A DNA stretch of 34,999 bases from Pseudomonadota bacterium (GTDB taxonomy: Bacteria > Pseudomonadota > Gammaproteobacteria > Steroidobacterales > Steroidobacteraceae). Shown here piece after piece: positions 16,477 through 34,999 of this stretch; positions within the stretch are counted from its first letter, which is position 1; each line of letters begins with the position of its first letter. Both the position numbers and the translations under genes were made by a program. The stretch lies in NCBI GenBank assembly GCA_021838635.1, contig JAKCDC010000027.1, forward strand, positions 1 to 34,999. The letters are read 5' to 3'. The notes under the pieces are model-generated. The model did no database searches. It was given only the letters and a program-made list of their open reading frames with translations, and was not told where the DNA came from.

Positions 16477-16523
16477 GTGAGGGATCTTTGGCAAGCTGCC
16501 GAAAGCCGTCCGACGTGGCACGA

Positions 16524-16561
16524 AGCGCCAGTGCGGAAGGCGAAGCTACGGCTCTGGCGCT
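16524..16561 (+). promoter_or_regulatory. stem-loop in the clc leader
   Basis: AGCGCCAG and CTGGCGCT form a perfect 8-bp stem enclosing 22 bases that can pair further. It lies in the roughly 220-base leader between the MarR-type motif and the clc start. No T-tract follows and it does not match the fluoride riboswitch consensus as I know it. Confidence 0.35.
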
Positions 16562-16688
16562 CTCACACTCAGGTTAGTCTCATGACTGGCGGTGGGTCGG
16601 CAAAATTCCCGGGATCGGGGATTCCTCTCCCTGACGCTGGATGCAAAAGCTCGGGCGGCGGCGCCGGGTCAGGGGAAGGCTGACACCC

Positions 16689-20293: not shown

Positions 20294-20329
20294 GGTTCTC
20301 CAACGGTTCCGGATGGCGCGCATTTTCCG

Positions 20330-20344
20330 TCGTACTACGATATT
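20330..20344 (-). promoter_or_regulatory. predicted MarR operator between clc and marR
   Basis: Read toward clc the site is AATATCGTAGTACGA, a TCGT-N3-ACGA inverted repeat. It lies between divergent genes, 37 bp from the clc GTG and 23 bp from the marR ATG, the normal place for a MarR autoregulatory operator. It is nearly identical to sites upstream of norZ and the other clc gene. Confidence 0.6.
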
Positions 20345-20366
20345 ATTCTCCACGAGAACAGCTTCG

Positions 20367-20837: not shown

Positions 20838-20873
20838 CTAGAGTGGGTCACCGGCCCACCAGTCGATGGCCAG

Positions 20874-21269
20874 TTGATCACTCTGCGCCTGCTGCGTGCT
20901 GACGTCCCAACCCGTTATCCCACACTCAAGCTGTACATTGTCAACTTGCGCGGCGACGTTCCATTCTTGGCGCGGCGTATCCACGACAACGCCGAGGATT
21001 TGAGTTCATTCAAGCACTCGCCGCGTGAGGACCTGCGTGAGTTGTCGGTGGAAGCGGCGCACTTCCACGGGCGTTCCTTGTACATGGCGCTGGAGACCTA
21101 CGATGGGGAGAAGGTCATGTACGGCAGAGGTTACCCGTATTTCCAGGATGCCAAGTGCACCCGTGCGGTTACCTACATCCGCGACGCTTTCGCCGCCAAG
21201 GCGGCCGAGCGTTTGCTGGCCAGGAACGCCCTTGCCCTTTATGGCATTGACTCGGCAAGAAAATCCTAA
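20874..21269 (+). CDS. hypothetical protein (uncertain)
   Basis: A TTG-started frame of 131 codons follows marR. The middle reads like protein (HFHGRSLYMALETYDGEKVM, then GYPYFQDAKCTRAVTYIRDA) and the end is helical (AAKAAERLLARNALALYG). I do not recognise a family. The start is weak; a shorter start at ATG 21084 would leave 61 residues. Decayed sequence follows directly, so it may itself be a remnant. Confidence 0.35.
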   Translation: MITLRLLRADVPTRYPTLKLYIVNLRGDVPFLARRIHDNAEDLSSFKHSPREDLRELSVEAAHFHGRSLYMALETYDGEKVMYGRGYPYFQDAKCTRAVTYIRDAFAAKAAERLLARNALALYGIDSARKS

Positions 21270-21302
21270 TAAGCCCGCACATCCCACCGCATGAAACGTT
21301 GG

Positions 21303-21540
21303 CGATGAGTCACTATTTTTGCCGGGAGTTGCTGTTTCAGCCATTTGCGGTGACGTTGGCGGTATCGACGTTGTCGTGCCGCGTGACCCTGCGCACCGCG
21401 GCGGGTCCTTTGATAGCGAGCCGCCGCTCGCCGCAGTTGTTCCTTGGGGTTCAAGTCCTTGCAGCCCGCGGGCAGTACGCCTGACTCCGGTCGCACAGGC
21501 GACAGCTTCAAACGGCGCTCCCACAGCGCCGGCAATGTTA
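21303..21540 (-). pseudogene. decayed small Cys-rich ORF
   Basis: On the minus strand, one frame gives RRCGSAV, a stop, then SCRLCDRSQAYCPRAAR. A second frame continues with EQLRRAAARYQRTRRG, HAARQRRYRQRHRKW and a final IVTH. In my memory intact versions join these as one short zinc-binding-like protein (CxxC, YC, RYQ.S..GR, RQ.RYR.R, VTHQ) of unknown role, often near mobile elements. Stop codons and at least one frameshift break this copy. Confidence 0.5.
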
Positions 21541-21721
21541 CCGCCGATGGGCAGCTTGCACCCACGACCCCCGCAGCACTGGACAGCGCCGGGGGGAGGC
21601 AGGCATAAGGGGCATCCGGCGAAGCCCCACAGGTGCGCCACAACGCCGGGGGTCCGGGGTTGAGTGGTATCGAGCCCAGGCCCTCGCTTCTGGCGTTCAG
21701 CATAGTTCAGAGGCAGCCTTT

Positions 21722-22141
21722 ATGATCGAGCGCCGTGTCGATGGCTTCTTCTATGGGCTCTTTATGGACGTCGACGTCCTGCGCGGCAGCGGTGTCGCGC
21801 CCGTGAGCGCCTCTCGCGCATACGTTGATGACTTCGCATTGTGCATAGGCAATCGCGCAACTCTGATCCCCTCCCCGGGTGCTCGCGCATACGGAATGCT
21901 GATTGCACTGACACACTCCGAACTGCACCGTCTATACAGCGCTCCGGGGCTGGAGCCGTACCGACCGGAAGCGGTTCTGGCTCGCCCGCTCGACGGAGGC
22001 TCCATCCCGGCCCTGTGTTACAACCTTGTTGAATCGCCCGCAGCCAACGAACGAAATCAAGCGTACGCAGTTCGGCTGCAAAAGACGCTTCGTGATCTGG
22101 GATTTCCAGGTGAATACATCGACTCCGTAGCGAGTTGTTGA
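21722..22141 (+). CDS. gamma-glutamylcyclotransferase-like (GGCT/AIG2) protein
   Basis: This 139-residue protein has the GGCT fold signature. It starts with YGLFMDVDVLRG, where the family usually has a YG-x-x-M segment. It continues with AYVDDFALCIGNRATLIPS, GARAYGMLIALTHSELHRLY and the conserved Tyr/Pro-rich PGLEPYRPEAV. GGCT-like enzymes cyclise gamma-glutamyl peptides or amines to 5-oxoproline; the acidic catalytic Glu is not securely placed here. GAGG lies 8 bp before the ATG. It is the last gene before the Tn7-like transposon and a candidate neighbour of the attachment site. Confidence 0.65.
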   Translation: MIERRVDGFFYGLFMDVDVLRGSGVAPVSASRAYVDDFALCIGNRATLIPSPGARAYGMLIALTHSELHRLYSAPGLEPYRPEAVLARPLDGGSIPALCYNLVESPAANERNQAYAVRLQKTLRDLGFPGEYIDSVASC

Positions 22142-22601
22142 TCGCTTGCGAAAGTTGATCACGACCATGCCGCATGCATTGACCACACTCAGCAGCAGCG
22201 AGGCCGCAGGATGCGGCCGTCTACGGCCGGTCCAGCCGACCTCCCACAGGGACGCTCATGATCACATAGAAGCGGATATTTCTTCGCGCTGCCGCCCCTC
22301 GCAGAGGCGAGCACGATCACCGCGCCTGCGGATACTTCGTCGTCTTACGATAGAAGTCGTTCTGCCGCACTACTTTTGGCCGACATGACCGGGCTCCTTT
22401 TGCTTGCGCGTCAGCGCCGCTTGGTCACCACCGCTGGCGATGAGGCGGGGAGAGTTTCGAGGAGGGTGGCGATCGCGGAATAGGACGCCGGGGCTCGATG
22501 GTCTGCCCCCGCTCGGCGTATTGATCCCGAAACTTGACCAGATTTTTGGGATCGCCGTTCAGCCTGATGCCTTCAGAGCAAGTTGTTCGAAATTCGTGCC
22601 A
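22142..22601. other. intergenic region at the transposon's tnsA-side end
   Basis: No gene is supported. A GATCCC/GGGATC hairpin with AAA/TTT inner pairs lies at 22523-22552. The tnsA-side transposon end should fall in or near this stretch, but I cannot fix a terminal TGT or a target duplication. ORFs on both strands lack motifs. Confidence 0.35.
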
Positions 22602-22629
22602 TTGATCGAAGGGTCTTGCCAAATATAAC
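22602..22629 (+). promoter_or_regulatory. predicted sigma70 promoter for tnsABC-tniQ
   Basis: TTGATC (22602-22607), a 16-base spacer and TATAAC (22624-22629) form a plausible promoter 47 bp upstream of tnsA. The stretch is AT-rich compared with the surroundings. Confidence 0.4.
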
Positions 22630-22676
22630 AAAACCGCGTAGAATAATATTTAACATGGAAGAAAAGCAATAAGAAT

Positions 22677-23363
22677 TTGATCGCCCCAATCGATATCCGC
22701 ATCAACTTCCCCGACAACGTTCGCTCCCGCAAGGTGGTCACCCGCTCGCGGGCCCGCCCGACCGGCAAGTACCCCTCCTGGAAAGCCGGCCGGATGCTTC
22801 AGTGGGAGTCCCCGCACGAGCTCAACGCATTCCGGATCCTGGATGCGAACCCGGATGTGCGGACGTTCAGGGAACAGCCGTGCGTCATCCGCTACACCCT
22901 AGCCGGCGAGTCGCGGATCCACTATCCCGACCTCCTCGTCGATTGGGGATCACGCCTCGAGCTGTGGGAGGTCAAGCCCGCCGCTGATGCGGCCAAATCC
23001 GAAGTCATGGAGCGCACGCGCGTACTGGCAGAAGGTCTGCCCAGACTCGGATATGGCTATCGTCTACAGACCGCCGAGGACCTAGCGCGGGAGCCGCGTT
23101 TATCCAATGCCCTGGCATTGCTGAAATTCGGTCGGGCTCCGGTGCCAGCGCTCGCACAAGAGCGTTTGCGACGGATGGCCTCGGCGAGCGGCGGAATTCC
23201 CTGGGGAGCCGTCGTTTCCGGATCGTTGGGGTCGGGCATGCGGGCGGCCGTATGCCGGCTGGCGCTCGAAGGCGTCCTCTTTTTCGACCGCGAATGGCCC
23301 TTGGTCGGTGACTCCCGACTGATCTGGGCCAAGAGTCACGCGTCGACCGGAACGGAGGGTTGA
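22677..23363 (+). CDS. tnsA: TnsA-like transposon endonuclease
   Basis: This 228-residue protein has the TnsA nuclease fold. Glu48 lies in SPHELNAFRIL, Asp85 in HYPDLLVDW and the EVK triad (98-100) in LELWEVKPA. These match the E/D/ExK residues of TnsA, a restriction-enzyme-like nuclease that cuts the 5' ends of the transposon. The C-terminal part (about 135-225) is a winged-helix-like region. The frame opens with TTG at 22677 and a poor ribosome site; no in-frame ATG comes before Met40, so the true start is uncertain. It is followed at 3 bp by tnsB. Confidence 0.85.
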   Translation: MIAPIDIRINFPDNVRSRKVVTRSRARPTGKYPSWKAGRMLQWESPHELNAFRILDANPDVRTFREQPCVIRYTLAGESRIHYPDLLVDWGSRLELWEVKPAADAAKSEVMERTRVLAEGLPRLGYGYRLQTAEDLAREPRLSNALALLKFGRAPVPALAQERLRRMASASGGIPWGAVVSGSLGSGMRAAVCRLALEGVLFFDREWPLVGDSRLIWAKSHASTGTEG

Positions 23364-23366
23364 ATC

Positions 23367-25418
23367 ATGGGGATGGCATCTTTCCACCAGGGCGCATCGG
23401 TCGAGCTCCTCGGTAAGCGGTACGTCCTTCTTCGGAAGGTCGATGAGAAGCTCTGGCAGCTTGAGGAGGATCGCACGGGCCGGATCAGCGAGTACACCGC
23501 CTCGCAGCTGCACCAGCTGTACGTCGAGGCGAAATTACGGTTCGAGGTGGGCCGTCCACCGCGCGCAGATGCGAAGCCCGGGACTGGGTCCCGTCCGGTC
23601 GATCTCGATCCGCGGCACTGGGGCATGGCCAAGATGCGCCGTGCATACGTGATGGCTATTCTCGAGGGTCCTAATACCGAGGACTTCATCGCCCCCCGTG
23701 TGTCCGCTCTCTGGGAAAAACTGAAGGCGCCAGAGCGTGCACCCAACTGGACGACGGTATACCGATGGAAGCGCGCCTACCTCGCCGCGGCGAAGGATGC
23801 GAGCGCCCTTGCGCTCGAGCTCAATAAATCCGGCAACAAGAACAAGCGCTATCCCCAGGAAGTGACGGCCATCGTCGACTCGGCCATCGAGGCCAAGTAC
23901 CTCACGCGCGAGCGCAAGACCATTCAGGACACCCTGGACCATGCCCTCGCACTCGTGCAGCGGGAAAACGAGATTTTGCCTGAGCCTCTTCATCTGCCGA
24001 TGCCGACGCGGCGTCTGGTCAAACGGATGATCGATGAGATCCCTGCCTACGATCGCCATGTCGCCCGGTACGGCTCCACGGCGGCCAGGCAGCGCTTCCG
24101 ATCCGTGCAGGGGCATCGGACGACCGAGGGCCCGCTGGAGCGGGCTGAGATCGACCACACTCCGATGGACCTGATGGTGATCGACGACAATGCCTGCGTC
24201 CCGCTCGGCCGTCCTTACCTGACGTGCTGCATCGACGATTACAGCCGGTGCATCCTGGGGATTTACCTGGGCTTTGAGCCGCCGAGCCACCTCACGGTTG
24301 CGCACTGTCTCAAGGACGCCTTCTTGCCAAAGGTCGGGCTCAAAGAGAAATACCCCACGATCAAAAACGACTGGGACGCGCACGGGATCATGCGCGAGCT
24401 GGTCGTGGACAACGGCTCGGAATTCCACAGTGCAAGTCTCGAGAACGCCTGCTACACGCTTGGCATCGAGATGCACTACGCGCCCCGCAAGGTGGCGTGG
24501 TTCAAGGGCAAGATCGAGAGGTTTTTCGGAACCTTGAACGACGGAACGGCACACGGCAATCCTGGCACGACCTTCCGCAATATCTTTGAAAAGGACGACT
24601 ACGATCCCTCGAAGCATGCCGTGATCCGCCTCAGCCGACTTCAGGAGATCATCCGACTGTGGATCGTCGATTATTACCATCAGAAACCGCACCGAACGAT
24701 CCACGTACCGCCGGCCGTGAAGTGGGATACCTCGATCTGCCCGGAAGACATCCAGGTGCCGGACGACCCCGTGAGACTCGATGCCATCCTCGGGAAGAGC
24801 GACGAGAGACGACTCACTCACAAGGGGATCGAGTACGACGGCCTGTTCTACAACTCTCCTGAACTCGCCGCACTGCGCATGAGTCTCGGCGCGAACCTCG
24901 ATGTCGATATTCGAGTCGACGACTCTGATCTCGGGCACATCGTCGTCCTCTCCGAGGACAAGACGCGCCTGTTCAAAGCCAAGGCCCTGAGCTTCGAGTA
25001 TGCCAACGGTCTTAATCGATGGACGCACCGGGTGTGCAAGAACTTCGCCGCCCGTGAATGGCGCAAGGAAGGTCCAGCATCATGGCTTGAGGCGAAGTTG
25101 CGAATCTCGGAGATCATCGACAAAGAGTTCATGCACAAGCGGATGAAGACGAGAAAGCGCATTGCCCGGTTCCGGGGCGACGCCTCGACGGCCGATACGC
25201 CGGCGCGGGAACACCCGCGGGCGTCCGAGTCCGCCGCAGCGCAGCCCCCGGCGCCCGCCGTGGCTCTCCTCGAAAATGTGTCCAAAGCCGTTCCTACCCC
25301 GCCGCCGGTGCCCGAAGCAGTTCCAAAGGCTGCCGCAGTCGACGTGGCCAACGTGCCGCGCAAGAAATTCACACCCCAATACCGCGAGCGTTCGACCTTG
25401 AACGGTGCGCGCAACTGA
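23367..25418 (+). CDS. tnsB: TnsB-like DDE transposase
   Basis: This 683-residue protein belongs to the Mu/TnsB/TniA class. It has an N-terminal DNA-binding region with a tryptophan-rich helix segment (LWEKLKAPERAPNWTTVYRW). The integrase core has catalytic Asp263 (EIDHTPMDL), Asp348 (VVDNGSEF) and Glu384 (GKIERFF). A Mu-transposase-type beta-barrel follows (about 470-570), then a Pro/Ala-rich tail ending in basic residues, probably the TnsC contact. It binds the ends and joins the 3' strands. GGAGGG lies 8-10 bp before ATG. Confidence 0.95.
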   Translation: MGMASFHQGASVELLGKRYVLLRKVDEKLWQLEEDRTGRISEYTASQLHQLYVEAKLRFEVGRPPRADAKPGTGSRPVDLDPRHWGMAKMRRAYVMAILEGPNTEDFIAPRVSALWEKLKAPERAPNWTTVYRWKRAYLAAAKDASALALELNKSGNKNKRYPQEVTAIVDSAIEAKYLTRERKTIQDTLDHALALVQRENEILPEPLHLPMPTRRLVKRMIDEIPAYDRHVARYGSTAARQRFRSVQGHRTTEGPLERAEIDHTPMDLMVIDDNACVPLGRPYLTCCIDDYSRCILGIYLGFEPPSHLTVAHCLKDAFLPKVGLKEKYPTIKNDWDAHGIMRELVVDNGSEFHSASLENACYTLGIEMHYAPRKVAWFKGKIERFFGTLNDGTAHGNPGTTFRNIFEKDDYDPSKHAVIRLSRLQEIIRLWIVDYYHQKPHRTIHVPPAVKWDTSICPEDIQVPDDPVRLDAILGKSDERRLTHKGIEYDGLFYNSPELAALRMSLGANLDVDIRVDDSDLGHIVVLSEDKTRLFKAKALSFEYANGLNRWTHRVCKNFAAREWRKEGPASWLEAKLRISEIIDKEFMHKRMKTRKRIARFRGDASTADTPAREHPRASESAAAQPPAPAVALLENVSKAVPTPPPVPEAVPKAAAVDVANVPRKKFTPQYRERSTLNGARN

Positions 25419-25438
25419 CATTCAGAGGATTTCCCGAA

Positions 25439-26446
25439 ATGGAGAGTATTCGCAATATCGTCGAGTCGACCTTAGTGCCGCACACGGCCTTTGAGAACGG
25501 ATTGAAGCGGCTCGAGCAGTGCTTCAGTCACGCGGAGTGCGCCCAGGAACCGATCTGTATCGCGGTCATTGGCGAATCGCGGACCGGTAAGAGTCGGGTG
25601 ATCGAGGAGTGCGCGGAAAGCCATCCGACGGTGCGCGGATCCGAGGGACTCACCATCCCAATTCTGCGAGTCAAGACACCATCCACGCCGACCATCAAGG
25701 GGCTGGCGGAGGCGATGCTCGATGCCATGCAAGATCCTCGCGCGGCCACCGGAACGGAGTTCCAGAAGACCAAGCGACTGAAGAAGCTCATGGCCGAGGC
25801 GGGCACCCGGATGCTGATGATCGATGAGTTCCAGCACTTCTACGACCGGATGTCGAACAAGATCATGCACCGCGTCGCCGATTGGCTGAAGATCATGGTC
25901 GATGAGACCAAAGTCGCGCTGGTCGTCGCCGGGCTCCCGTCCTGCCGGGCGGTGCTGCACCAGAACGAACAGCTTGCGGGCCGCTTCTTTGCGCCGATCG
26001 TGATGCCGCGCTTTGACTGGGCCCGGCGAGAGCAGCGGGAAGAATTCACCGCGATCCTCGAGGCATTCCACGAGTCTCTGCGGCGGCACTTCCAGCTACC
26101 CGCTCTTGACTCGGATGAGATGGCTTTCCGGTGTTATTGCGCCACAGGGGGCCTGATCGGATACCTAACGAAGTTCCTAAGACAGGCGGTATGGAATGCC
26201 ATGGATGCAGGTACTGACCAAATCACGTTCGAGGACCTGCGACGTGCTCACGAAGAGGCCGTGTTGATAGAGGACGGTTCAGGGTCGGTTCCGAGTCCCT
26301 TCGCCAGGGATTTTCCGCTGGAGTCGACCGAGCGCCTTTTGGAATCGATCCGTACGATTGGTACGCGCCCGGAACTGCCACCGGAGCGGACAACGCGTCG
26401 TCGCCTCGGCCGGCGCAGCGTGCTTGAGACCCTGTCGGCGTCCTAA
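25439..26446 (+). CDS. tnsC: TnsC/TniB-like AAA+ ATPase
   Basis: This 335-residue AAA+ protein has Walker A GESRTGKS (45-52) and Walker B MLMIDEFQH (125-133). An Arg-finger region follows (LAGRFFAPIVMPRFDW). It couples target selection by TniQ/TnsD to TnsB by forming filaments on DNA. Its length resembles TniB and CAST TnsC, not the 555-residue Tn7 TnsC. An AGAGGA ribosome site precedes the ATG. It is followed at 3 bp by tniQ. Confidence 0.93.
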   Translation: MESIRNIVESTLVPHTAFENGLKRLEQCFSHAECAQEPICIAVIGESRTGKSRVIEECAESHPTVRGSEGLTIPILRVKTPSTPTIKGLAEAMLDAMQDPRAATGTEFQKTKRLKKLMAEAGTRMLMIDEFQHFYDRMSNKIMHRVADWLKIMVDETKVALVVAGLPSCRAVLHQNEQLAGRFFAPIVMPRFDWARREQREEFTAILEAFHESLRRHFQLPALDSDEMAFRCYCATGGLIGYLTKFLRQAVWNAMDAGTDQITFEDLRRAHEEAVLIEDGSGSVPSPFARDFPLESTERLLESIRTIGTRPELPPERTTRRRLGRRSVLETLSAS

Positions 26447-26449
26447 GCC

Positions 26450-28792
26450 ATGCTGGTGCGTACACCCCATCCCGAGGCCACCGAGAGCGCCTTCGGCTAC
26501 GTCCTGCGTCTTGCCGAGGCAAACGGTTATCCGAGCCCCCGGACCGTGCTCGATTACGCGGGATTCGCCAGACAGGGAACCCCGATCAGTACTTTGCCGT
26601 TGACGAAGCTCGCGTCCGTGACGGGATTACCGGAACCGGAACTTGAGACGATCGCCTACGTGGCGCGGGGCGGCGACGGCAGGACTCGGTTCAAGATCCT
26701 GGGCCATGATCTGGGTCAGCACCACTCAGGCCTACCCTTGAGTCTGCGCGACCCGGTGATCTGCCCGGCATGTGTGGCGGAGCAGGGATACATTGATGCG
26801 TTCTGGGACCTCGAACAGGCCGTCGCCTGTCCGATTCACGGCTGCAAGGCTTTGTCCCGCTGCCCAGTATGCAGCGAGCCCCTCTCATGGTTCCGCCCGG
26901 GACTTCTCACCTGCGGCTGCGAGGCGGATCTGTCGGCGGCGCATGCCGAAGCAGCTTCCTCCGAAGTGCTGGCGCTGATGGCGGTCGTGCGCGCCAAGCT
27001 CCATCGAGAGCCGCTGCGCGATCTCCCGAATGACACGGGTCTACCGCACGTAGAGTTGGACTCAATCTCGCTGCGCTCGATGCTCGGGATCCTGAGCACG
27101 CTTGCCCGCTTCAGTTTGGAGAGCAAGGGTCAATCCAAAGAAGTTGGCCGATACTCCGCTATGCGCGAAGCGGCCGAGTGCCTGGCTCGCTTCCCCAAAG
27201 GATTTCACCAGATGCTCGAACACCTGGGACTACGATACCGGGGGGCAACTTCCGGCGCAGTGGGTCTCCGGAAACAATTCGAGCCCTTCTACGCCCCCAT
27301 GTTCAAGCAAAGCGCGTTCCGCAAAGACGCCGCGTTTCTGCGCAATGCGTTCGTGGTCTTCGGCCAGGCGGAGTGGGGGCAGGCTGCCGTGGACCCGAAA
27401 TTGCTGAAGGGAATGCGGGGCAATGCCCAATCCACCGGGTTCTTGACGCTGAACCAGTTGGCCCGAGAAAAGGGTATCCGGCCCATCACGCTGAAACGGT
27501 GGGCGGAGCGTGGCCTGATCACGATTCACTCGATCAAGAGCGCCAACCACGTCCGGCACATTGTTAACGAAGACACTCTTGATTTTGGCAAGCAGGCCCC
27601 GGGTAGGACCATGCACGAACGCAAGGCGGCGGCATTCATCGGGCTTCCGGTGTCCGTGCTGCACGGGTTGCGCGAAAGCGGTCACTACGCCGTGGCGCAT
27701 ATGCCGAAACACAAACACGGCTATCACGAGGCGGATCTCGCGGCGTTCCGTGAGAAACTCCTTGAACGTGCATGCGGGACGAAGAGCGATGGTGCGGCTG
27801 GGGATGCCGTATCCCTCGGGCATGTGATGCGGGAGATGAATTTCCTGCAGCGCGACGGAAAGGCATCTTTTCTCGCGGCCTTCCTGGAAGGCACGATCGA
27901 TGCGATCGGCATGAAGGGTCGGGATATCGCCGCGATTCAGTTCCGCCAGGCGGACGTGACCGCATTCATCAGCAGGAGCCGCCTCAAACCATCGAACGAT
28001 GCATTGACACAAAGAGATGCCTCCTCGTACTTGTCGTGCGATTCCGCGGTCATCCTCGAGCTAATCAGACGAGGATTTCTAAGTGCCGTCCGCGTGGCCG
28101 GGCATGTCCGGGTCGAACGAAATTCCCTCGATACTTTCGCCGGGAAATATCGGTCACTCCTGGCGGTCGCCAACAGGGCAGAGACGTCCGTCGGTCGACT
28201 GACGCGGCTTTGCAGGGATGGCGGAATCGCGGTTCTCAGCATTGCCCGCAAGAATGGGAAAGAGGTGCCATTCATCTCCCGCACCGAAGAGCCGAAGCTT
28301 CTCGAGCATGTCGGGACTCATCCGACTGGCAAGATGCAGCAGGAGTTGAGGGCCCGGGAGAACCCAGGGGTCGTGCAAAAGTTGCGCGCATATTTGCAGA
28401 ATCTCAAGTGCAGCGGAACGGAATTGCCCCGACGAGCGGGGCGGCCGCAGCTCGCTGCAATCGCCATGGCATGCGGTTTCGATCGAGGTGTCCTGTACAA
28501 GAATAAGGAGGCGGTGGCGCTGCTGGCGCGATGGAATGAAGTCGAGCAGCGGCAGCACAGCCACCCGGTGAAGGCGGGTATCATGGACCTACGGAGCTAC
28601 ATCGAAGAACTGGAGACGAGCGGAACGCTACCCAGGCTGCGGGGCGGACGGATAAATCGCTGCCAGCTTGTGAGGCAGTGCGGCGTTCATCGGAACGCTA
28701 TCTACAATGATAAGGCCATCGTTGAATTGTTGGCGCGACTCGATGAAACGTATCTCGCGCCGCTCCCCATAAATTCCGATCGGACCGAGTAG
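26450..28792 (+). CDS. tniQ: large TniQ/TnsD-type target selector
   Basis: This 780-residue protein begins with a TniQ domain (residues 1-160), with TPHPEATESAFGYVLRL and a zinc set CPAC (105-108), CPIH (127-130), CPVC (138-141) and CGC (155-157). The long remainder has several helix-turn-helix-like segments, such as LTLNQLAREKGIRPITLKRW (about 340-360) and LTQRDASSYLSCDSAVI (about 520-540). It ends with two tandem repeats (about 636-704 and 705-768) sharing L-R-x-Y, SGT-x-LPR, GR, CG-x-x-R, Y-x-x-K and LLAR. I infer sequence-specific recognition of an attachment site, as by TnsD. The target is not known. Confidence 0.88.
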   Translation: MLVRTPHPEATESAFGYVLRLAEANGYPSPRTVLDYAGFARQGTPISTLPLTKLASVTGLPEPELETIAYVARGGDGRTRFKILGHDLGQHHSGLPLSLRDPVICPACVAEQGYIDAFWDLEQAVACPIHGCKALSRCPVCSEPLSWFRPGLLTCGCEADLSAAHAEAASSEVLALMAVVRAKLHREPLRDLPNDTGLPHVELDSISLRSMLGILSTLARFSLESKGQSKEVGRYSAMREAAECLARFPKGFHQMLEHLGLRYRGATSGAVGLRKQFEPFYAPMFKQSAFRKDAAFLRNAFVVFGQAEWGQAAVDPKLLKGMRGNAQSTGFLTLNQLAREKGIRPITLKRWAERGLITIHSIKSANHVRHIVNEDTLDFGKQAPGRTMHERKAAAFIGLPVSVLHGLRESGHYAVAHMPKHKHGYHEADLAAFREKLLERACGTKSDGAAGDAVSLGHVMREMNFLQRDGKASFLAAFLEGTIDAIGMKGRDIAAIQFRQADVTAFISRSRLKPSNDALTQRDASSYLSCDSAVILELIRRGFLSAVRVAGHVRVERNSLDTFAGKYRSLLAVANRAETSVGRLTRLCRDGGIAVLSIARKNGKEVPFISRTEEPKLLEHVGTHPTGKMQQELRARENPGVVQKLRAYLQNLKCSGTELPRRAGRPQLAAIAMACGFDRGVLYKNKEAVALLARWNEVEQRQHSHPVKAGIMDLRSYIEELETSGTLPRLRGGRINRCQLVRQCGVHRNAIYNDKAIVELLARLDETYLAPLPINSDRTE

Positions 28793-28856
28793 GCACTGGA
28801 AATCAAGGGGGGGCTGCTGTCGTGCACTCGGGCGCGGCATTTCCGCTCCCAAAGCC

Positions 28857-30254
28857 TCACTCCCATAGTGACCGATTCACCGCGCTGAGGACCGGATCTG
28901 CGCAAAATAGGCAGCCGGGCTGTCGCGGGCGCAATATTCGGCGTCGCGCAAGGGGCGGATGCCACGGGCTGATTCGCCAGTAATTGTCATCGTGGCTACT
29001 CGCTCCAGTGCTCAGGCGCCGGACCAGCTCTAGCGCGAGCATTGTGCCCGCGAGCACTGAAACAAAGGCAAACGGAGCGAGGACTCGTTTCCCTTCGAGT
29101 GTCGTGAGCTTACCTTCGGCGCACAGGTTCTTGAATAGAGTGTCGTACGCAATCCCGACGAGGTCACGTTGGGCAAACTTGGGGTAGCGCCCTGCGATCG
29201 TCGCGGCGGCTGCGGGAGAGACTCGCTCGCTTCGAACATCCTCCAGAGTCACCCCAAGGTGGTCAGCGATGTGCTGCTCCCGCGTACTCTCCTCGGCGTC
29301 GGGCTCGTAGATGCAGCTCATACAGGCATTCTGCGTGGGCTGGACGTGATAGTGGAGAACGACCTCGCGGATATCGGTGGTCGAGGCATCGAACACTTCG
29401 CGTGGAAATTCATTCTGGATGGCCCGTCGAGCACGGCGGCTGTCGACCGCTACGATGAGACGGCGTAACCAGGGTCCACCCTCGGACCTCTCGGGGAGCC
29501 CCTGGAGCCTGCTCGTTCGCGGCTCGAGCTTCAGGTGCGGGAAATGTGGCTGTGCGCGGGCGACGAGACGATCTGCCTTCGGGAGAGTGATGTCGGTTCT
29601 ATCGAACCACATCTGTCGATTAAGGTTCCCGGAGGACACCGCGTCATCGTCGACCACGTCCAGCTGCCCGCGAAGTTGCAGGTACCGTGCCGCCCATAAG
29701 AACCCGTTACCGATCGCCCCAGCACCCGCCAAGTACGCGTGCCCAATGTCGATCGGTTTCTCAAGGTCCGCCAGGTCTACGCCAAGTTGGCGAAATTCGA
29801 CGCTCAACGGGTCGGGAATCGAAAAGGGTAGGGAGCCACCGAGAGCGTGATATAGCGCCACACCAGAGGCATAGCACGCGGCAAGAAGCTGGAAGAGGGC
29901 AGGTAGCCGTGCGCTCGTTTGCGTGGCGCGACGTCCGCGCGAAATCGAGAACCGGTCAGCCTCGATCGTGAGATACACCGGTACGGCACTGGTCCTCGGC
30001 GCAGCGCACCCGATAATGAGCTCCGCGGCAATGGCGCCATCCGCGACTTCAGACGAGATGTCTTGGACCGTACGGCTTAGAAGGGAAATCACCTCGTCGG
30101 CCACGGAACAAGCGACCGCATCGCTCGGATCTGCCGTGACGGCGATACGCAGGTCAAGCGCGTGCGCGGCCTCATCGAAGCTGATGCCGAGAGCGGAGGC
30201 GAGGGCCGCGGCGTTTTCGCGACGCGCCTCGGTCGTCAGAGGATCTCGAGACAT
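28857..30254 (-). CDS. bilD: Bil-type E1 (ThiF-fold) activating enzyme
   Basis: This 465-residue E1-like enzyme would adenylate the C-terminus of the Ubl and pass it to the E2. The N-terminal domain (1-165) precedes a ThiF-type Rossmann core with GAGAIGNG (177-184), an Asp cluster (202-204), NLNRQ (210-214), Lys226 and Asp271. A zinc site is formed by CMSC (311-314) and CLFC (448-451). Cys378 in NLCAEG is a candidate catalytic thiol. The ATG at 30254 overlaps the JAB gene by 19 bp; a longer start at 30290 is possible. It is the last gene of a four-gene operon in the published Bil order (Ubl, E2, JAB, E1). It converges with tniQ 64 bp away. Confidence 0.9.
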   Translation of the reverse strand: MSRDPLTTEARRENAAALASALGISFDEAAHALDLRIAVTADPSDAVACSVADEVISLLSRTVQDISSEVADGAIAAELIIGCAAPRTSAVPVYLTIEADRFSISRGRRATQTSARLPALFQLLAACYASGVALYHALGGSLPFSIPDPLSVEFRQLGVDLADLEKPIDIGHAYLAGAGAIGNGFLWAARYLQLRGQLDVVDDDAVSSGNLNRQMWFDRTDITLPKADRLVARAQPHFPHLKLEPRTSRLQGLPERSEGGPWLRRLIVAVDSRRARRAIQNEFPREVFDASTTDIREVVLHYHVQPTQNACMSCIYEPDAEESTREQHIADHLGVTLEDVRSERVSPAAAATIAGRYPKFAQRDLVGIAYDTLFKNLCAEGKLTTLEGKRVLAPFAFVSVLAGTMLALELVRRLSTGASSHDDNYWRISPWHPPLARRRILRPRQPGCLFCADPVLSAVNRSLWE

Positions 30255-30700
30255 TCCCGTTGCACCTGACAGAAGGGCACTTCGACCCACGTCGCCGCTG
30301 ATGAGAATCGGTAAACCTTGGCATCCTGCATAAAGCTCGACGGCGTGGTGTGGGCAGCAAAGTAGGGCAGGACGAGCGAGAGGGCACCCTCATGCCGGAT
30401 GATGGCCCAGCGATCATCCGCCCTCGAATGGAATGCCTCTGCCGGATGAGAATGAACCTGCGCGGCGACCATGAGCCGTCGCTGGCGCAGCTCCCCGTGC
30501 AGCGCTTGCATGCCTGCGCGGGGAATCTCGAACATGTCCTCGGCGGTCGACTGAATGGGTCGATAGCAGACCTCGATTTGGATATTCGTGGCGGCGCGCT
30601 TGCCGAGCCACAGCACGACGCATTCGCGGCGGCTTCGGCCCGCTTCGCGAAGATGGGAGAGCGTGAGATCGATACACCGCGACGGGCATTGCACCAGCAT
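30236..30700 (-). CDS. bilC: Bil-type JAB/MPN isopeptidase
   Basis: This 154-residue JAB/MPN metallopeptidase would process the Ubl or remove it from targets. Zinc and catalytic residues are visible: Glu26 (RRECVVLWLG) and the JAMM motif His83-x-His85, Ser92 and Asp95 (VHSHPAEAFHSRADD). The gap between the second His and Ser is six residues, one shorter than in classic JAMM proteins. The ATG at 30700 directly follows the TGA of the E2 gene, with AAGGA just before it. The Ubl already ends in free glycines, so de-conjugation may be its main role (inference). Confidence 0.9.
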   Translation of the reverse strand: MLVQCPSRCIDLTLSHLREAGRSRRECVVLWLGKRAATNIQIEVCYRPIQSTAEDMFEIPRAGMQALHGELRQRRLMVAAQVHSHPAEAFHSRADDRWAIIRHEGALSLVLPYFAAHTTPSSFMQDAKVYRFSSAATWVEVPFCQVQRECLEIL

Positions 30701-31138
30701 TCAGTCCTTCCCCTTCTCCCACGCATGCCAAATTTGCGTGAGAATCCCACCGAGCGAATAGCTGGAGCTGCTTTTGATGTTCTCCCAGAGATCCGTCACG
30801 TGACTGGGATGAGTGTGGTATTCCCGCGTGCCGCGCATGCAGACAAAGAACTCGTTCGTCGCCGGATGCCGTTGCGGATGGAATACGTTGCTCGTATTCG
30901 TCAGCGGGGCGGTGAGCAGCGATCCATCCGCTGCGTGCAGCGTGACCGAGGGCGGCAGGTCGCTCCAATCGTCACACCGGAATCTCACCCGCAGTGTCGT
31001 ACGGCGCTCAGCGGTGAATGAGCAGTCGATGAGCGGGTAGGTGAGCGAATGCAGCACCCATTGCCGGCGCCGAGCCAGCTCGGACGACAACGTGGCCACG
31101 TCTCGTTCGAAGAGCGCTCTGGAGGCCGCAAGATGCAC
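30701..31138 (-). CDS. bilB: Bil-type E2-like conjugating enzyme
   Basis: This 145-residue UBC-fold protein would carry the Ubl on Cys100 in FFVCMRGTREYHTHPSH, with conserved His108, His110 and His113 after it. The flanking NVFHPQRHPATNEF and the C-terminal GGILTQIWHAW are characteristic of the bacterial E2 group associated with E1 and JAB proteins. The start is GTG at 31138, immediately after the Ubl stop TAA, so translation is coupled. The ribosome site is GAAGGGGGC upstream. The family call rests on motifs and operon context; structural proof is not available here. Confidence 0.82.
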   Translation of the reverse strand: MHLAASRALFERDVATLSSELARRRQWVLHSLTYPLIDCSFTAERRTTLRVRFRCDDWSDLPPSVTLHAADGSLLTAPLTNTSNVFHPQRHPATNEFFVCMRGTREYHTHPSHVTDLWENIKSSSSYSLGGILTQIWHAWEKGKD

Positions 31139-31456
31139 TTACCCGCCGCCCCCTTCGCTCGGGCCCCAGTCGATCTCGACGTTTCCGGTAAGGCCATTAT
31201 CTCGATAGCTCCGGGTCACATCGATCTGGCGCTTGCCGGTGGGGGAGGTCACCGTGGCAACCCATCCCGTGGTGTCCTTGATTGTCAGCTTCCGCTTGGC
31301 CTCAGCGAGCTCCACCTCCACCTTCTGTTCGGTCGGCACCCGATTGAAGCCCTCCGCCGGGAAAAAGCCCGCCGTGGTCGAAATGGAGACTTCGACGAAG
31401 TGTTCGTGCTCGTGGTGTTCAGGGCTCGAGCCAGCCCCTGTGTGTTCCGAACTCAT
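31139..31456 (-). CDS. bilA: Bil-type ubiquitin-like modifier
   Basis: This 105-residue small protein ends in EIDWGPSEGGGG, four glycines directly before the TAA, as required for activation by an E1. The N-terminus is His/Glu-rich and flexible (residues 4-19). A beta-rich body follows, with VEVSISTTAGFFPAEGF and VEVELAEAKRKLTIKDTTGW (about 21-95). Published BilA proteins are often two-domain, ISG15-like; this one is a single short domain. GGAAGGAG lies 7 bp before the ATG. It is the first gene of the four-gene operon, with a promoter overlapping the inverted repeat 31512-31540. Sequence alone gives weak fold evidence; context is the main support. Confidence 0.78.
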   Translation of the reverse strand: MSSEHTGAGSSPEHHEHEHFVEVSISTTAGFFPAEGFNRVPTEQKVEVELAEAKRKLTIKDTTGWVATVTSPTGKRQIDVTRSYRDNGLTGNVEIDWGPSEGGGG

Positions 31457-31494
31457 CTGCCTGCTCCTTCCGGACTAGCCGGTAGCGTGCACAT

Positions 31495-31522
31495 AGTTTA
31501 AGGCCATTTTCTACATTGTCAA
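31495..31522 (-). promoter_or_regulatory. predicted promoter of the ubiquitin-like operon
   Basis: TTGACA (31522-31517), a 16-base spacer and TAAACT (31500-31495) form a good sigma70 promoter 39 bp upstream of the Ubl ATG. Its -35 box overlaps the inverted repeat at 31512-31540, so binding there should repress this operon. Confidence 0.55.
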
Positions 31523-31540
31523 TGGCTGTTATACAATGTA
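31512..31540. promoter_or_regulatory. operator: long inverted repeat between the divergent operons
   Basis: TACATTGT-N13-ACAATGTA has perfect 8-bp arms. It covers the -35 box of the ubiquitin-like operon and lies just upstream of the promoter of the divergent RHH operon. The RHH or XRE protein encoded next door is the likely ligand. Confidence 0.6.
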
Positions 31541-31547
31541 CTTTTAG

Positions 31548-31575
31548 TTGTCTTTACGGCCGGAATCGCTATAAT
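31548..31575 (+). promoter_or_regulatory. predicted promoter of the RHH-GNAT-XRE-ImmA operon
   Basis: TTGTCT (31548-31553), a 16-base spacer and TATAAT (31570-31575) lie 25 bp upstream of the RHH ATG. A near-perfect ribosome site (GGAGGTGAT, 31590-31598) follows. Confidence 0.55.
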
Positions 31576-31600
31576 CACTGTTCGCAGGCGGAGGTGATCT

Positions 31601-31810
31601 ATGGATCGACGGCAAATGACCCTGATGCTGAGCGACAAGGAAATGACCTTGCTCGATCAGCTGGCAGAGCGTCGCGGGATGTCCAAGACCGCCCTGGTCC
31701 GCCAGGCGCTGCGGTTGTACCAGTCGGTGACCGAGCGGATCGAGAGCGGTGAGAAGGTCTTCGTGGAGCGCCCGTCCACGAAGGAGAAGACCGAGTTGAT
31801 GGTGCTATGA
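31601..31810 (+). CDS. ribbon-helix-helix DNA-binding protein
   Basis: This 69-residue RHH/CopG-type protein has the strand MTLMLSDKEMTLLDQLAERR, then MSKTALVRQALRLYQSV, the G-x-S-x-T-x-x-R-x-A pattern of RHH dimers. A short tail (FVERPSTKEKTELMVL) would be free to bind a partner. Its stop overlaps the ATG of the GNAT gene (ATGA). RHH plus GNAT recalls TacA/TacT toxin-antitoxin pairs, but this GNAT is not an obvious TacT. It probably binds the intergenic inverted repeat. Confidence 0.8.
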   Translation: MDRRQMTLMLSDKEMTLLDQLAERRGMSKTALVRQALRLYQSVTERIESGEKVFVERPSTKEKTELMVL

Positions 31811-32433
31811 AGGAGCATGTCGGCTCGGTCGTTCTCCTCGACCGTACGAGCGGAGAGCCCGTGGCGGCCGATGTGTTTCGGGAGCTCGACGACAAGAACT
31901 TCCAGGATATCGAGACGCTCTGGCGTCCCATGCTCCAGCGCCGCCGGGCCGAATTCCCATCCTGGGAAGCGGCGGGAGGGGCCAATGCCCAAGACTCTCA
32001 CTGGGAATGGGTGGACAAGGCCAAAGAGGCCGAGCGCATCATGGGACGCGATACGTTCGCAGTGGAGTGCGACGGTGAGACGCAAGGGTTGATGCTGATC
32101 GACGTGGCCTATGCGCGCCTACCCGCCCAGCGTGGACGTGAGCTCACGTATATCGAGCTTCTGGCGGCCGCGCCATGGAACCGGACGAAGTTCTTATCCA
32201 CCCCCCGCTACAAGGGTGTCGGGCGAGTGCTCGTCAGTACCGCCATAAGCTTGAGCGTTGATCTCGGATTCAATGGCCGAATCGGCCTACACTCCCTGCC
32301 GCAATCCACAATGTGGTACCAGGGAGCCGGTTTTACTGACGTTGAATTTGATACCGAAAAGGAGATGCGCTACTTCGAAATGTCCGAATCCGATGCGGCC
32401 GCATTCGTCGGACTGAAGAGGAGCACTCTATGA
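31807..32433 (+). CDS. GNAT-like acetyltransferase
   Basis: This 208-residue protein has features of the GNAT fold. After LMLIDVAYARLPAQRG and LTYIELLAAAPWNR come KGVGRVLVSTAISLSVDLGF (the acetyl-CoA loop region) and LHSLPQSTMWYQGAGFTDVEF, the usual fourth/fifth-strand block. The classical Q-x-x-G-x-G/A motif is replaced by YKGVGRVL. It is coupled to the RHH gene upstream and the XRE gene downstream by ATGA overlaps. The substrate is unknown; a tRNA- or protein-directed toxin, or a modifier in the conjugation system, are possibilities. Confidence 0.7.
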   Translation: MKEHVGSVVLLDRTSGEPVAADVFRELDDKNFQDIETLWRPMLQRRRAEFPSWEAAGGANAQDSHWEWVDKAKEAERIMGRDTFAVECDGETQGLMLIDVAYARLPAQRGRELTYIELLAAAPWNRTKFLSTPRYKGVGRVLVSTAISLSVDLGFNGRIGLHSLPQSTMWYQGAGFTDVEFDTEKEMRYFEMSESDAAAFVGLKRSTL

Positions 32434-32936
32434 AACTCTTGTTCTCTAATGATTGGCTGCTCAAGACCATTCCGACCGATCCGGACGACGAGCCTGAGGC
32501 GGGCGGAACGATCGATCCGTCCGTACACGAAGCCCAAATGCACTCTGAGAACACGGCCGTGATCGGGGAGCGCAACGTCGTCCAGTTGCGCATTGCCCTG
32601 GGAACCCTCGTGCGTCAGCTTCGACTCAAAGAAGGCTTGTCCATCGTCGAACTGGCCGAGCGCGCCGACGTTTCCGAGGATGAGCTGCGCCTAGTCGAAC
32701 ATGACCCGCACTACACCGCCCGGCCGCGCCTCATCTTCCAGCTGTCGGAATATTTCCAGGTGCAGCTGGTCAAGCTCTCGCAAATGTCGGGAACCACTCA
32801 TGCGGTCAACCGAGTGCTATATAACGAAGCCGTCCGGTACGCTGCCCGATCTGACGATGTGTCAGCGCTGACGGATGAGGAACGGCAAGCGCTCGATGCC
32901 TTCGTGTCGATGCTCAATGAGCGCGCCGAGATGTAA
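32430..32936 (+). CDS. XRE-like helix-turn-helix regulator
   Basis: This 168-residue protein has a disordered acidic N-terminal part (residues 1-45). An XRE-type HTH follows (about 55-110), with LGTLVRQLRLKEGLSIVELA and AERADVSEDELRLVE. A C-terminal helical region ends with LTDEERQALDAFVSMLNERA. Its ATG overlaps the GNAT stop (ATGA). The next gene encodes an ImmA/IrrE peptidase, the usual partner that inactivates or senses such repressors. It may bind the intergenic inverted repeat, as an alternative to the RHH protein. Confidence 0.78.
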   Translation: MKLLFSNDWLLKTIPTDPDDEPEAGGTIDPSVHEAQMHSENTAVIGERNVVQLRIALGTLVRQLRLKEGLSIVELAERADVSEDELRLVEHDPHYTARPRLIFQLSEYFQVQLVKLSQMSGTTHAVNRVLYNEAVRYAARSDDVSALTDEERQALDAFVSMLNERAEM

Positions 32937-32939
32937 TCC

Positions 32940-33872
32940 ATGCTCAATGGGGAGGTCGGCGAACACGAAAAGAGAGTCATTCGGAAGCAAGTCGACCGAA
33001 TCCTGCGCGACCTCGGAAATCCCGAACCCCCGCTACGACTCACCGATGTTCGAGCGCTGCTTCACCTCGATCTTCAATATTACAGTAGCTCGAACCCGGC
33101 TCTCGTCAAAGAGCTGACACACCGATTCAGGCTACTCGCACGCAAGTCCATCCCGGATCTCGGAAAGCGCCTCCTCTCGGCCCTGACGAAATCAAAGCTC
33201 TGCGCGTTCTGGGTGCCGGAAAGCTCTCGCATCCTGCTCGACACGGAGGTGCCCAAGCCGAAACACCGCTGGATCGAGGCACACGAGATCACTCACAGCG
33301 TGACGCCTTGGCACCGTCATTTTCTCCTGGGCGACAATCACCATACGCTGGATCCGGCCTGCCACGCGATCCTCGAGGCCGAGGCAAACTACGGCGCCGG
33401 AAGGTTGCTGTTTCTCCAGGACCGATTTGTCGAGGAGGCCCGCGACGTTCCTCTCTCGTTCGCATCGATAAAGACACTCGCCAAGCGATACGAGAATTCC
33501 ATCGTCTCCACATTCTGGCGCTTCGTGGAAGACCGTGCGTCAGAACTGCCGGCGTTCGGAATTATCAGCATCCATCCGCACCATCCCGACGTGGGGCACC
33601 ACGATGGGCCCCATCCTTGGCGATATTACATTCGATCGTCAGCGTTTCGAACGCGATACCATACTGTCTCTCCCGATGATCTCTATCAAGCGATCGCCCA
33701 GTATGCCAGTCACAGGAAAACTGGTCCGGTCTTCAGCGCTACGCATGTTCTGCGAAATGCGGTGGGGGATGCCTTTGAATTTCAGGTCGAATCGTTCTCA
33801 ACAAAACACGATCTACTTACGTTTGGCGTGCAAACTGCGCCATTTGCCGAAAGCATTGCTGTCCCGCGGTGA
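32940..33872 (+). CDS. ImmA/IrrE family zinc peptidase
   Basis: This 310-residue protein has the ImmA/IrrE core with the zinc motif His115-Glu-x-x-His119 (EAHEITHS) and downstream acidic candidates Glu146/Glu148 (AILEAEANYGAGRLLF). Family members cut XRE-type repressors during stress or phage induction. The C-terminal half (about 170-310) is an extra domain containing SIHPHHPDVGHHDGPHPW, which is His-rich. It starts three bases after the XRE stop. I infer control of the XRE protein and, through it, of the divergent conjugation operon. Confidence 0.82.
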   Translation: MLNGEVGEHEKRVIRKQVDRILRDLGNPEPPLRLTDVRALLHLDLQYYSSSNPALVKELTHRFRLLARKSIPDLGKRLLSALTKSKLCAFWVPESSRILLDTEVPKPKHRWIEAHEITHSVTPWHRHFLLGDNHHTLDPACHAILEAEANYGAGRLLFLQDRFVEEARDVPLSFASIKTLAKRYENSIVSTFWRFVEDRASELPAFGIISIHPHHPDVGHHDGPHPWRYYIRSSAFRTRYHTVSPDDLYQAIAQYASHRKTGPVFSATHVLRNAVGDAFEFQVESFSTKHDLLTFGVQTAPFAESIAVPR

Positions 33873-33874
33873 CC

Positions 33875-34027
33875 ATGAAGGACTTGATCACGGAGTTGAC
33901 GTTCAATGTGGAACCGAATACGACGGACCATATCTGCAGCCACTGCGTGCGCCTGCCGCGCTTTCCGCGCCGGGCCGGCGCGCCGCCGCCGGCTGACCAT
34001 CGGGCGTTACGGAAACCCGTCCGATAG
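33875..34027 (+). CDS. small CxxC protein
   Basis: A 50-codon frame starts two bases after the ImmA stop. It encodes LITELTFNVEPNTTDHICSH, with CSHC (residues 21-24), then a basic Pro-rich tail. It could be a tiny zinc-binding protein, or the N-terminus of one whose remainder is frameshifted. No ribosome site is seen apart from translation coupling. I do not recognise it. Confidence 0.3.
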   Translation: MKDLITELTFNVEPNTTDHICSHCVRLPRFPRRAGAPPPADHRALRKPVR

Positions 34028-34088
34028 GCCGCCTCCGCTTCATTGGACACCCTGCCATCCATCAACGATCAATCGATTCAAAGCGACA

Positions 34089-34262
34089 ATGACGTGCCCT
34101 AAAGGTCACGTAATAACTCTCCGTTCACACAGAATAAACTCGAACGGGATTGTAATGCCGAGTGTGATGTGTCCTGGCGAGGGCTGTATGTTCCATGCGT
34201 ATGTCCGCCTCGAGGATTGGACTTTCGGCGTCGTCAGTCGAAGTATTTCCGCTTGGCGGTGA
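34089..34262 (+). CDS. small zinc-ribbon-like protein
   Basis: This 57-residue protein has CPKGH at the start and CPGEGCMFHAYVRLEDW further on, a four-ligand zinc-ribbon-like layout (Cys3, His7, Cys28, Cys33). The body reads VITLRSHRINSNGIVMPSV. The ATG at 34089 begins right at the motif but lacks a clear ribosome site; a longer frame from 33906 exists and is less protein-like. Function unknown. Confidence 0.4.
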   Translation: MTCPKGHVITLRSHRINSNGIVMPSVMCPGEGCMFHAYVRLEDWTFGVVSRSISAWR

Positions 34263-34272
34263 TCGCGGCGCA

Positions 34273-34581
34273 TTACGAGTAGACGCCGTATGCAATGCGC
34301 GCAAGCAGGTCTTTGACTTCCTGCGCGCCCTGGGGCTCTCGCGCTACCAGAAGCGGCATCTGACCGTGCAGTTTTGGGTTGGGCGTCCCAAGAAAGGCTG
34401 CTGCATCCAGTCCAAACTCATCCTTCGCCTGAATGCAGACCTCGGCGAGATGCTGAGGCATGTCAAGCGGTTGATGGTCGATTAGAGCCGCCAGCCGCAA
34501 CAGAAGGTCTTTCTCGGTCGCGCGCACCGCCTCCAGGTCGGTGAGGATCTTCTGGATGACGTCATTGGATCCGGTTGCCAT
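34273..34581 (-). CDS. Xre/MbcA/ParS-type antitoxin (DUF2384-like)
   Basis: This 102-residue protein ends with AFLGTPNPKLHGQMPLLVA and VKDLLARIAYGVYS, the toxin-binding (DUF2384) motif of Xre/MbcA/ParS antitoxins, where TPNP and L..I..G are the hallmarks. The N-terminal half is helical. The ATG at 34581 has AAGGGCGA before it. No RES-domain toxin gene is visible next to it in this window; its partner could be beyond the edge or lost. The DUF2384 call rests on the C-terminal motif. Confidence 0.6.
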   Translation of the reverse strand: MATGSNDVIQKILTDLEAVRATEKDLLLRLAALIDHQPLDMPQHLAEVCIQAKDEFGLDAAAFLGTPNPKLHGQMPLLVAREPQGAQEVKDLLARIAYGVYS

Positions 34582-34999
34582 ACGTTCGCCCTTGAATAGC
34601 CTCACTCCGTATCGCGGTAATCCGCGCGACGGAAATCGCCCGATCGACCGCTCCCGACGCCACCGCGCTCGCGATTATCTTCGCATTTGGCGGCCGTGTC
34701 GCCCGCGCAACGCGGCGGTCCCTGTATTGTGATGGCCATGCTGCCCCGGCTGGCGGGCCTGGCAGCGGCCCCGCAGTAGTGCACGGCGGTTTTTATTCGG
34801 CCATGCGGTGCATATAGAGGGATGATCGCGTGAACGCGGGAACTTGTGCCGGTTGCGTAAATTCTTGGTGAAGCTTGCGGCGGATGGGGATTGAGTGTTG
34901 CGCGGATCATGGTCCGGGAACGGGCAAGTCGTTGTTCTTATTTGCGACGGACTTGCAGCTCATCCGTCAACCCACACGCCGTTTTTATCCAACCGCGCC
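34582..34999. other. right part of the transposon, no gene supported
   Basis: No gene is supported here. Two related stretches, CACGGCGGTTTTTATTCGG (34782-34800) and ACACGCCGTTTTTATCC (about 34974-34990), and a looser one near 34929 resemble each other and, in inverted orientation, a sequence next to tnsA (22617-22640). They may be TnsB-binding repeats of the far end. The element may end just beyond the window. Confidence 0.35.

Follow-up and report, generated by a model that had tools for sequence, protein, structure and literature searches.

A Tn7-like transposon, probably inserted behind nrdJ, with a Bil-type ubiquitin-like conjugation operon among its cargo

The Tn7 core and the conjugation operon

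The window considered here is a whole contig of 34,999 bp (G000:C96) from a draft genome of 118 contigs. On its + strand lies a Tn7 core, tnsA-tnsB-tnsC-tniQ (22677-28792), and convergent with tniQ, on the minus strand, runs an operon for a ubiquitin-like modifier, an E2-like protein, a JAB peptidase and an E1 (31456-28857) that resembles the bacterial ubiquitin-like conjugation system Bil. An original prediction had placed this operon aboard a Tn7-like transposon, and we are concerned below with the extent of that element, its landing site and the nature of its cargo. An Rfam scan of the window returned no family at its threshold. The genes central to the argument are as follows.

22677-23363, + strand: tnsA (PF08722, 1e-07; NCBIfam NF033179, 8.4e-12, under that model's cut-off)
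23367-25418, + strand: tnsB (profile match; DDE-type motifs by eye)
25439-26446, + strand: tnsC, a TniB-type AAA ATPase (PF05621, 5.3e-32)
26450-28792, + strand: tniQ, 780 amino acids (PF06527, 8.8e-16; HTH_17, 2.9e-08; alignment)
28857-30254, - strand: E1, BilD-like (BilD 8tyz_A, 2.1e-25)
30236-30700, - strand: JAB/JAMM peptidase, BilC-like (PADLOC BilC, 2.7e-18; BilC 8tyx_B, 1.6e-17)
30701-31138, - strand: E2-like protein, BilB-like (CEHH motif C-x5-E-x-H-x4-H; Metal_CEHH, 6.3e-09)
31139-31456, - strand: ubiquitin-like modifier, a single domain ending in GGGG

The identities and positions predicted for the tns, E1, JAB, E2 and modifier genes are borne out by profile matches and by the coordinates as read. 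All four Tn7-like core genes, tnsA, tnsB, tnsC and tniQ, occur together, and a search at E 1e-5 found a single tnsB in the genome. TniQ has a long C-terminal part in which two similar units can be discerned by eye, and its sequence makes it the probable target selector of the element.

The Bil label has also held, in that the E1, JAB and E2 proteins are nearest to BilD, BilC and BilB, with catalytic residues that align. BilD is the nearest solved E1 (2.1e-25, the next match being 2.9e-09), and the candidate catalytic cysteine, C390 in a 477-residue numbering, is aligned with BilD Cys417; the open reading frame extends to a GTG at 30290, and the six closest relatives are 465 amino acids long. 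Among PADLOC models, BilD matches this protein at 1.1e-06, with E1-E2 close behind at 2.9e-06. The HSHP and DD residues of the JAB protein align with those of BilC, which marks it as a BilC-type JAMM peptidase. In the E2-like protein, the spacing of the CEHH motif is that of BilB C138/E144/H146/H151, as given in the part of PMC11354881 drawn on here. PADLOC BilB matches it at 1.5e-05, and in the PDB BilB (8tyz_C) is found at 0.0032, the match covering the motif and ranking after three designed proteins that match over short stretches by chance. Bil as solved (BilABCD; 8tyx, 8tyy, 8tyz and 8tz0) and the window operon have the same four components, the same gene order (Ubl, for ubiquitin-like modifier, then E2, JAB and E1) and an aligned E1 cysteine, although the window E1 is only distantly related to BilD.

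The modifier, which was also placed in a 50-sequence alignment, is modelled by AlphaFold2, with structural alignment, as one SUMO-like beta-grasp, and a PDB sequence search with it gave matches at 0.071 or worse only. In contrast to this single Ubl domain, BilA is described as a tandem of two Ubl domains in the same part of PMC11354881, a feature that may not be family-defining; the Ubl chain in 8tyx/8tyz comprises 82-83 residues (16-97). The window modifier ends directly in GGGG and therefore has no tail to remove. Tandem two-domain modifiers (P0244, 184 amino acids; P0245, 179 amino acids) were seen beside the common single-domain form. The bacterial ubiquitination-like Bub operons, in the portion of PMC13373217 used here, can share regulators with the window operon; the window E1 is set apart from them through BilD as its nearest solved E1, a comparison in which Bub is represented by descriptions rather than sequences.

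The probable nrdJ landing site and the ends of the element

A repeat search without an end model, conducted around tnsA and behind tniQ, found nothing above chance, and the ends of the element could therefore be recognised only through the junctions of its relatives with nrdJ, the operon of an adenosylcobalamin (B12)-dependent ribonucleotide reductase (TIGR02504) whose second gene has a TSCPD domain. TniQ relatives with 31-38% identity were located at thirteen loci in named genomes; closer relatives of TniQ (P0001-P0007) reach 73-97% identity. The tniQ side faces the 3' end of the nrdJ operon in two of the thirteen (L020 and L021), and the reductase gene lies on the tnsA side in four (L009, L014, L015 and L019; 34-41% identity). 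Likeness to the element-free nrdJ loci L112-L114 persists as far as the coding region does (4276 in L020, near 9968 in L021); the next 29 bp are not conserved, and the junction was placed by the terminus. Read away from nrdJ, the ends are TGTGGGTTGAC in L020, L021 and G012, TGTGGGTCACC in G006, TGTGGGTGAC in G018 and TGTGGTTTACC on contig C93 of the window's own genome (G000), and these nrdJ-side termini are followed by repeats of CCCCATAAGxTGAGACTT, with variations. The nrdJ gene at L020:5056-8259 has an intein start inside the reductase (TIGR01445, 1.4e-07, residues 323-402).

A survey of nrdJ shows how often such ends occur. We searched 40 genomes, of which 37 matched, and fetched 30 loci; eight were dropped for an unreadable tail (L082, L085, L087, L101, L103, L104, L105 and L108). 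Among the 22 with a readable 3' tail, five have a Tn7-like end 29-34 bp behind the nrdJ stop codon (G011, 29; G012, 31; G006, 33; G000, 34; G018, 31), as does L021. All five belong to the 15 loci from the genus, own genome counted, and none of the seven loci from outside the genus has an end there. L090 and L093 were counted as free of an end though their contigs stop 21 and 44 bp behind the stop codon, and TGTGG at 21 and 2 bp in L084 and L094, which is not accompanied by repeats, was not counted as an end. At the edges of the window the following features are read.

1-18, + strand: left flank, matching at 18 of 18 positions bases 15-32 past the stop codon of the second gene of the genome's own nrdJ operon on contig C93
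19-99, + strand: left (nrdJ-side) end, with a TGT terminus and TGCAAG at 38, 59 and 81 (spacing 21 and 22 bp)
34759-34976, - strand: distal transposon end, with the terminus TGTGGGTTGAC at 34976-34966 on the minus strand
34977-34999, + strand: flank past the distal end, 23 bp

The left flank ends 32 bp behind the nrdJ stop codon, close to the distances in the relatives, and an 18-bp match of this kind would be expected by chance 0.0001 times in 3.47 Mb, both strands counted. At the right, the inverted terminus at 34966-34976 is identical at 11 of 11 positions to the ends of L020, L021 and G012 and lies 23 bp from the edge of the window. Over the 218 bp leading up to it, identity to a block in another genome of the genus (G006:C28:23740-23955) is 91%, and this likeness stops at the terminus; the last 19 bases of the right flank have no second copy in genome G000 with up to two mismatches allowed. 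The two ends form an inverted TGT-type pair with TnsB-like repeats. Bases 19 and 34976 are reciprocal best partners (15/20 at offset 10-30), the runners-up reaching 10/20 among 314 forward TGTs for the left end and 11/20 among 300 reverse TGTs, and 10 of 200000 random TGT pairs attained the 15/20 value. The TGCAAG triple of the left end is the sole such triple on either strand of the window, and its terminus-nearest copy has the same offset as the right-end site; the end likeness is strong only because both sites are equally distant from TGT. A match of G056 to bases 23-67 was set aside as chance, lying inside another gene.

We believe that the window is probably a nearly bare copy of one Tn7-like transposon, reaching from about 19 to 34976, with the Bil-type operon among its cargo. 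An element of this length is the most likely reading because base 19 is the best partner of 34976 and because bases 1-18 are the genome's own nrdJ flank. If so, the element is larger than originally thought, and the part of that prediction which stands is that a Tn7-like element carries the conjugation genes. Cargo status for the genes to the left of the core depends on the end at base 19 only.

394-20837: probable cargo (Pfam/NCBIfam; MarR by eye), namely an HTH regulator, CMD, DUF488, GNAT, a pyridine nucleotide oxidoreductase, NnrS, NorB, a ferredoxin, a Crp/Fnr-type regulator, DUF2249, an FeS assembly protein, two ClC channels and MarR

Several observations weigh against this extent. Without a fixed offset the likeness between the ends is modest: the 20-bp value is reached in 14 of 500 shuffles and, among 1372 internal pieces of 150 bp, by 68 when they are compared with the left end and by 66 when they are compared with the right. 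In a comparison of the first 26 bases, base 19 does no better than a TGT at 17212 (both 17/26). The right end has one TGCAAG, and internal repeats are clear at the left end only, those at the right being not above chance. The five bases outside the ends differ (TTTTT and CGCCG), and no 5-bp target duplication shows in the 18 and 23 bp of flank that this draft contig offers. Contig C93, with the same nrdJ flank, runs into a different Tn7-like end (CCCCATAAG repeats); for both junctions as read to exist in a single genome, there would have to be a mixed population or a faulty assembly. Furthermore, left-hand genes are matched in 54 of 60 genus genomes (own included) at 1e-20, many of these matches covering a single ferredoxin stretch and nothing more. 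Colinearity with 6962-14897 is seen in G029:C83, which has no tns gene in the stretch read, and G034:C157 brings together ClC, the start of marR, nnrS and a Crp/Fnr-type gene in some 4.3 kb, again with no tns gene there. Absences in these searches of relatives' DNA mean little, five candidates per genome having been scored.

The presence of the left-hand genes in relatives away from tns genes is the reason to retain a shorter element as an unlikely but serious alternative, in which the left end would lie in 20838-22676 near tnsA, the nor, nnrS, ClC and marR genes of 1-20837 would be chromosomal and the operon would still be cargo. In many Tn7-like elements tnsA does lie near an element end. 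The ClC-marR and nor/nnrS clusters have homologues in many genus genomes, and five relatives' stretches hold pieces of 2997-20495 with no tns gene found there. However, 20838-22676 offers no matching end (its best forward TGT reaches 7/20) and 22144-22676 no inverted repeat above chance, while base 19 has both a matching end and the nrdJ flank. The left 20 kb may have been captured from the genus or may simply be chromosome. An idea that nor, ClC and marR never co-occur in relatives was dropped, since G034 has ClC, the start of marR and nnrS together.

Three side observations concern these regions. Window bases 21304-22331 form a mosaic of segments that recur in other genomes: 21304-21689 resembles, at 75%, a contig of G018 in which an IstB-like gene is also seen by eye, and G003 has 21604-21689 and 22197-22275 side by side. 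The intervening 21690-22196, which includes a weakly GGACT-like gene, therefore has the look of an insertion. The last 175 bases of C93 (L109 from about 3390) consist of TGTGG and four CCCCATAAGxTGAGACTT repeats, 34 bp behind its own nrdJ stop codon; no second tnsB to go with this end was found in the genome, and a remnant left from earlier, misassembly or a mixed population could account for it. In G006:C28 (L064 and L065), some 20 kb separate the block that is 91% identical to the window's right end from a tns cluster accompanied by genes that look, by eye, LexA-like and type I restriction-like, and these are perhaps two stacked elements behind one nrdJ.

For the operon itself, what counts is the distal end. 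The original prediction would have given up the cargo assignment had an end been found between tniQ and the E1 gene, and the 64 bp there (28793-28856) hold no right-hand TGT terminus and no inverted repeat above chance; the sole family-type terminus on the tniQ side lies past the conjugation module, at 34976. The operon therefore falls inside the element with either left end. That the transposon instead stops right behind tniQ, with the operon on a separate adjoining island, is very improbable on this evidence, even though a gene-close end on the tniQ side does occur in the family (in L020, L021 and G012 the terminus lies about 210-220 bp past the last matched tniQ residue), and a 9-base near-match to the repeat core (CCCCATAAA) is present at 28765, inside tniQ. 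The occurrence of the module elsewhere, described below, is also in keeping with a separate island.

Distribution and proposed regulation of the conjugation module

Divergent from the modifier gene is a four-gene unit (31601-33872, + strand), followed by an antitoxin-like gene.

31601-31810, + strand: RHH/CopG-type regulator (PF01402, 4e-08)
31807-32433, + strand: GNAT-like protein (Acetyltransf_10, E=0.054, weak)
32430-32936, + strand: XRE-type HTH regulator (HTH_3, 4.6e-06; PADLOC HTH_VI, 3.5e-07, ahead of capH, 0.0016)
32940-33872, + strand: ImmA/IrrE-type metallopeptidase, CapP-like (PADLOC capP, 3.2e-11; HEITH motif by eye)
34273-34605, - strand: Xre/MbcA/ParS-type antitoxin-like protein (PF09722, 1e-09)

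A Bradyrhizobium barranii plasmid has the genes for E1, JAB, the CEHH protein, the modifier, RHH, a hypothetical protein (corresponding to the GNAT-like gene), HTH and ImmA arranged as in the window, and the annotation of the 22.7 kb shown includes no tns gene. Because the same eight-gene layout occurs on a rhizobial plasmid in this way, the conjugation operon is cargo and not transposon machinery, and the arrangement indicates that the eight-gene module moves as a unit. In B. barranii (L074:11129-11674), the modifier C-terminus is in a different frame from the annotated gene. Three more distant plasmid copies, with E1 proteins 37-48% identical, have other neighbours on the divergent side (a WYL protein; an Xre/RES pair; HTH and ImmA). 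A Marinibacterium plasmid has the quartet from RHH to the ImmA-like gene without the operon, where only RHH is named and DNA-matched and the other three are assigned by position; this RHH-headed row (L077:5923-8224) adjoins a gene annotated Cas9.

The operon does not go with this TniQ lineage in particular. The original prediction had suggested examining TniQ relatives for adjacent E1, E2 or JAB genes, and at a threshold of 1e-4 neither these genes nor Ubl are present in any of 18 TniQ-bearing loci (the genome scan supplied 13 and kin five, with L005, L008 and L020 on one contig and L004-L008 covering only 1.8-4.6 kb); a systematic TniQ-Bil link was rejected on this count. The E1 is also rare: among 59 other relatives, matches were confined to 16 and were weak and partial (the best 5.8e-7, at 24% identity), the family is absent from 368 other genomes of the class at 1e-15 and from 397 other genomes of the phylum at 1e-40, and a large protein set contains 968 E1 relatives. 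Such rarity in the sampled kin is as acquired cargo would show, and it therefore supports the cargo reading. Viral contigs yielded no relative of TniQ or E1 (28 and 23 pattern matches, none confirmed).

The divergent unit offers a candidate switch. In the portion of PMC13373217 used here, CapP is a protease that, on binding single-stranded DNA, cleaves the repressor CapH, such pairs adjoin immune operons, and 219 of 544 Bub operons have CapW or CapH with CapP. It is on this mode that the proposed XRE-ImmA switch is based. The window shares with those pairs an HTH protein and an adjacent ImmA/IrrE-type peptidase next to an immune-type operon, and it differs in that the pair is grouped with RHH and GNAT-like genes into a unit of four. 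The XRE protein is perhaps CapH-like, judging from its sequence, and the weakness of that match counts against the reading offered here. The orthologue of the ImmA protein in B. barranii is annotated ImmA/IrrE, and Pfam gave no peptidase match for the window protein.

Proposed mechanism and implications

Taken together, we infer that TnsB would bind both ends and, with TnsA, excise the element, and that TnsC would couple TnsA/TnsB to the target. TniQ, through its long C-terminal part, would pick that target, most likely the conserved 3' end of nrdJ, and the element would land about 30 bp behind the stop codon and leave the gene unharmed. Within the cargo, the JAB protein would process or recycle the modifier, the E1 (C390) would activate its terminal glycine and the E2, through its CEHH cysteine, would pass it to target proteins, probably phage virion proteins. 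The XRE-ImmA pair probably acts in the manner of CapH-CapP, the repressor being cut by the protease after DNA damage, such that the operon would be turned on when needed.

Bil is reportedly an antiphage system that places its modifier on phage virion proteins, and it is the nearest relative of the window operon. The operon's rarity in kin and its link to a CapH/CapP-like pair also resemble immune operons. It is rather unlikely, although a chance to be taken seriously, that this operon is instead a stress or housekeeping protein-tagging system, which would fit either extent of the element. No phage assay for the operon's clade is known to us. Related Bub operons are without shown phage protection in the portion of PMC13373217 cited above.

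Tn7-like elements are known to carry phage-defence genes, according to the part of PMC8649781 drawn on here. In that paper and PMC10293859, as far as these sources are represented here, elements with TnsABC and TniQ/TnsD have in common with the window the core genes, TGT-type termini and insertion behind a conserved gene. The window differs in that it attaches behind nrdJ rather than glmS, tRNA genes or comM, in its ubiquitin-like cargo and, if base 19 is the end, in core genes that are internal to the element. The main texts of both papers contain neither 'ubiquitin' nor 'ribonucleotide reductase', and our searches of the main texts of open-licence papers found no report of ubiquitin-like cargo or an nrdJ site for Tn7-like elements; among the matches listed, the two papers naming both Tn7 and nrdJ are by title on Pseudomonas physiology. 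The new points are the cargo, the landing site and the layout.

More broadly, and tentatively, the 3' end of nrdJ might be an undescribed standard attachment site for a Tn7-like lineage, at which several elements compete or stack and through which exchangeable immune cargo, including a complete conjugation system of the ubiquitin-like kind that is damage-inducible, might be ferried between distant bacteria. With such an element, ubiquitin-like conjugation in bacteria would have a tangible carrier, namely a targeted transposon able to bring the system into new hosts and set it beside a conserved gene. Two testable proposals follow, nrdJ as a new landing site and the XRE-ImmA pair as a switch for the operon.

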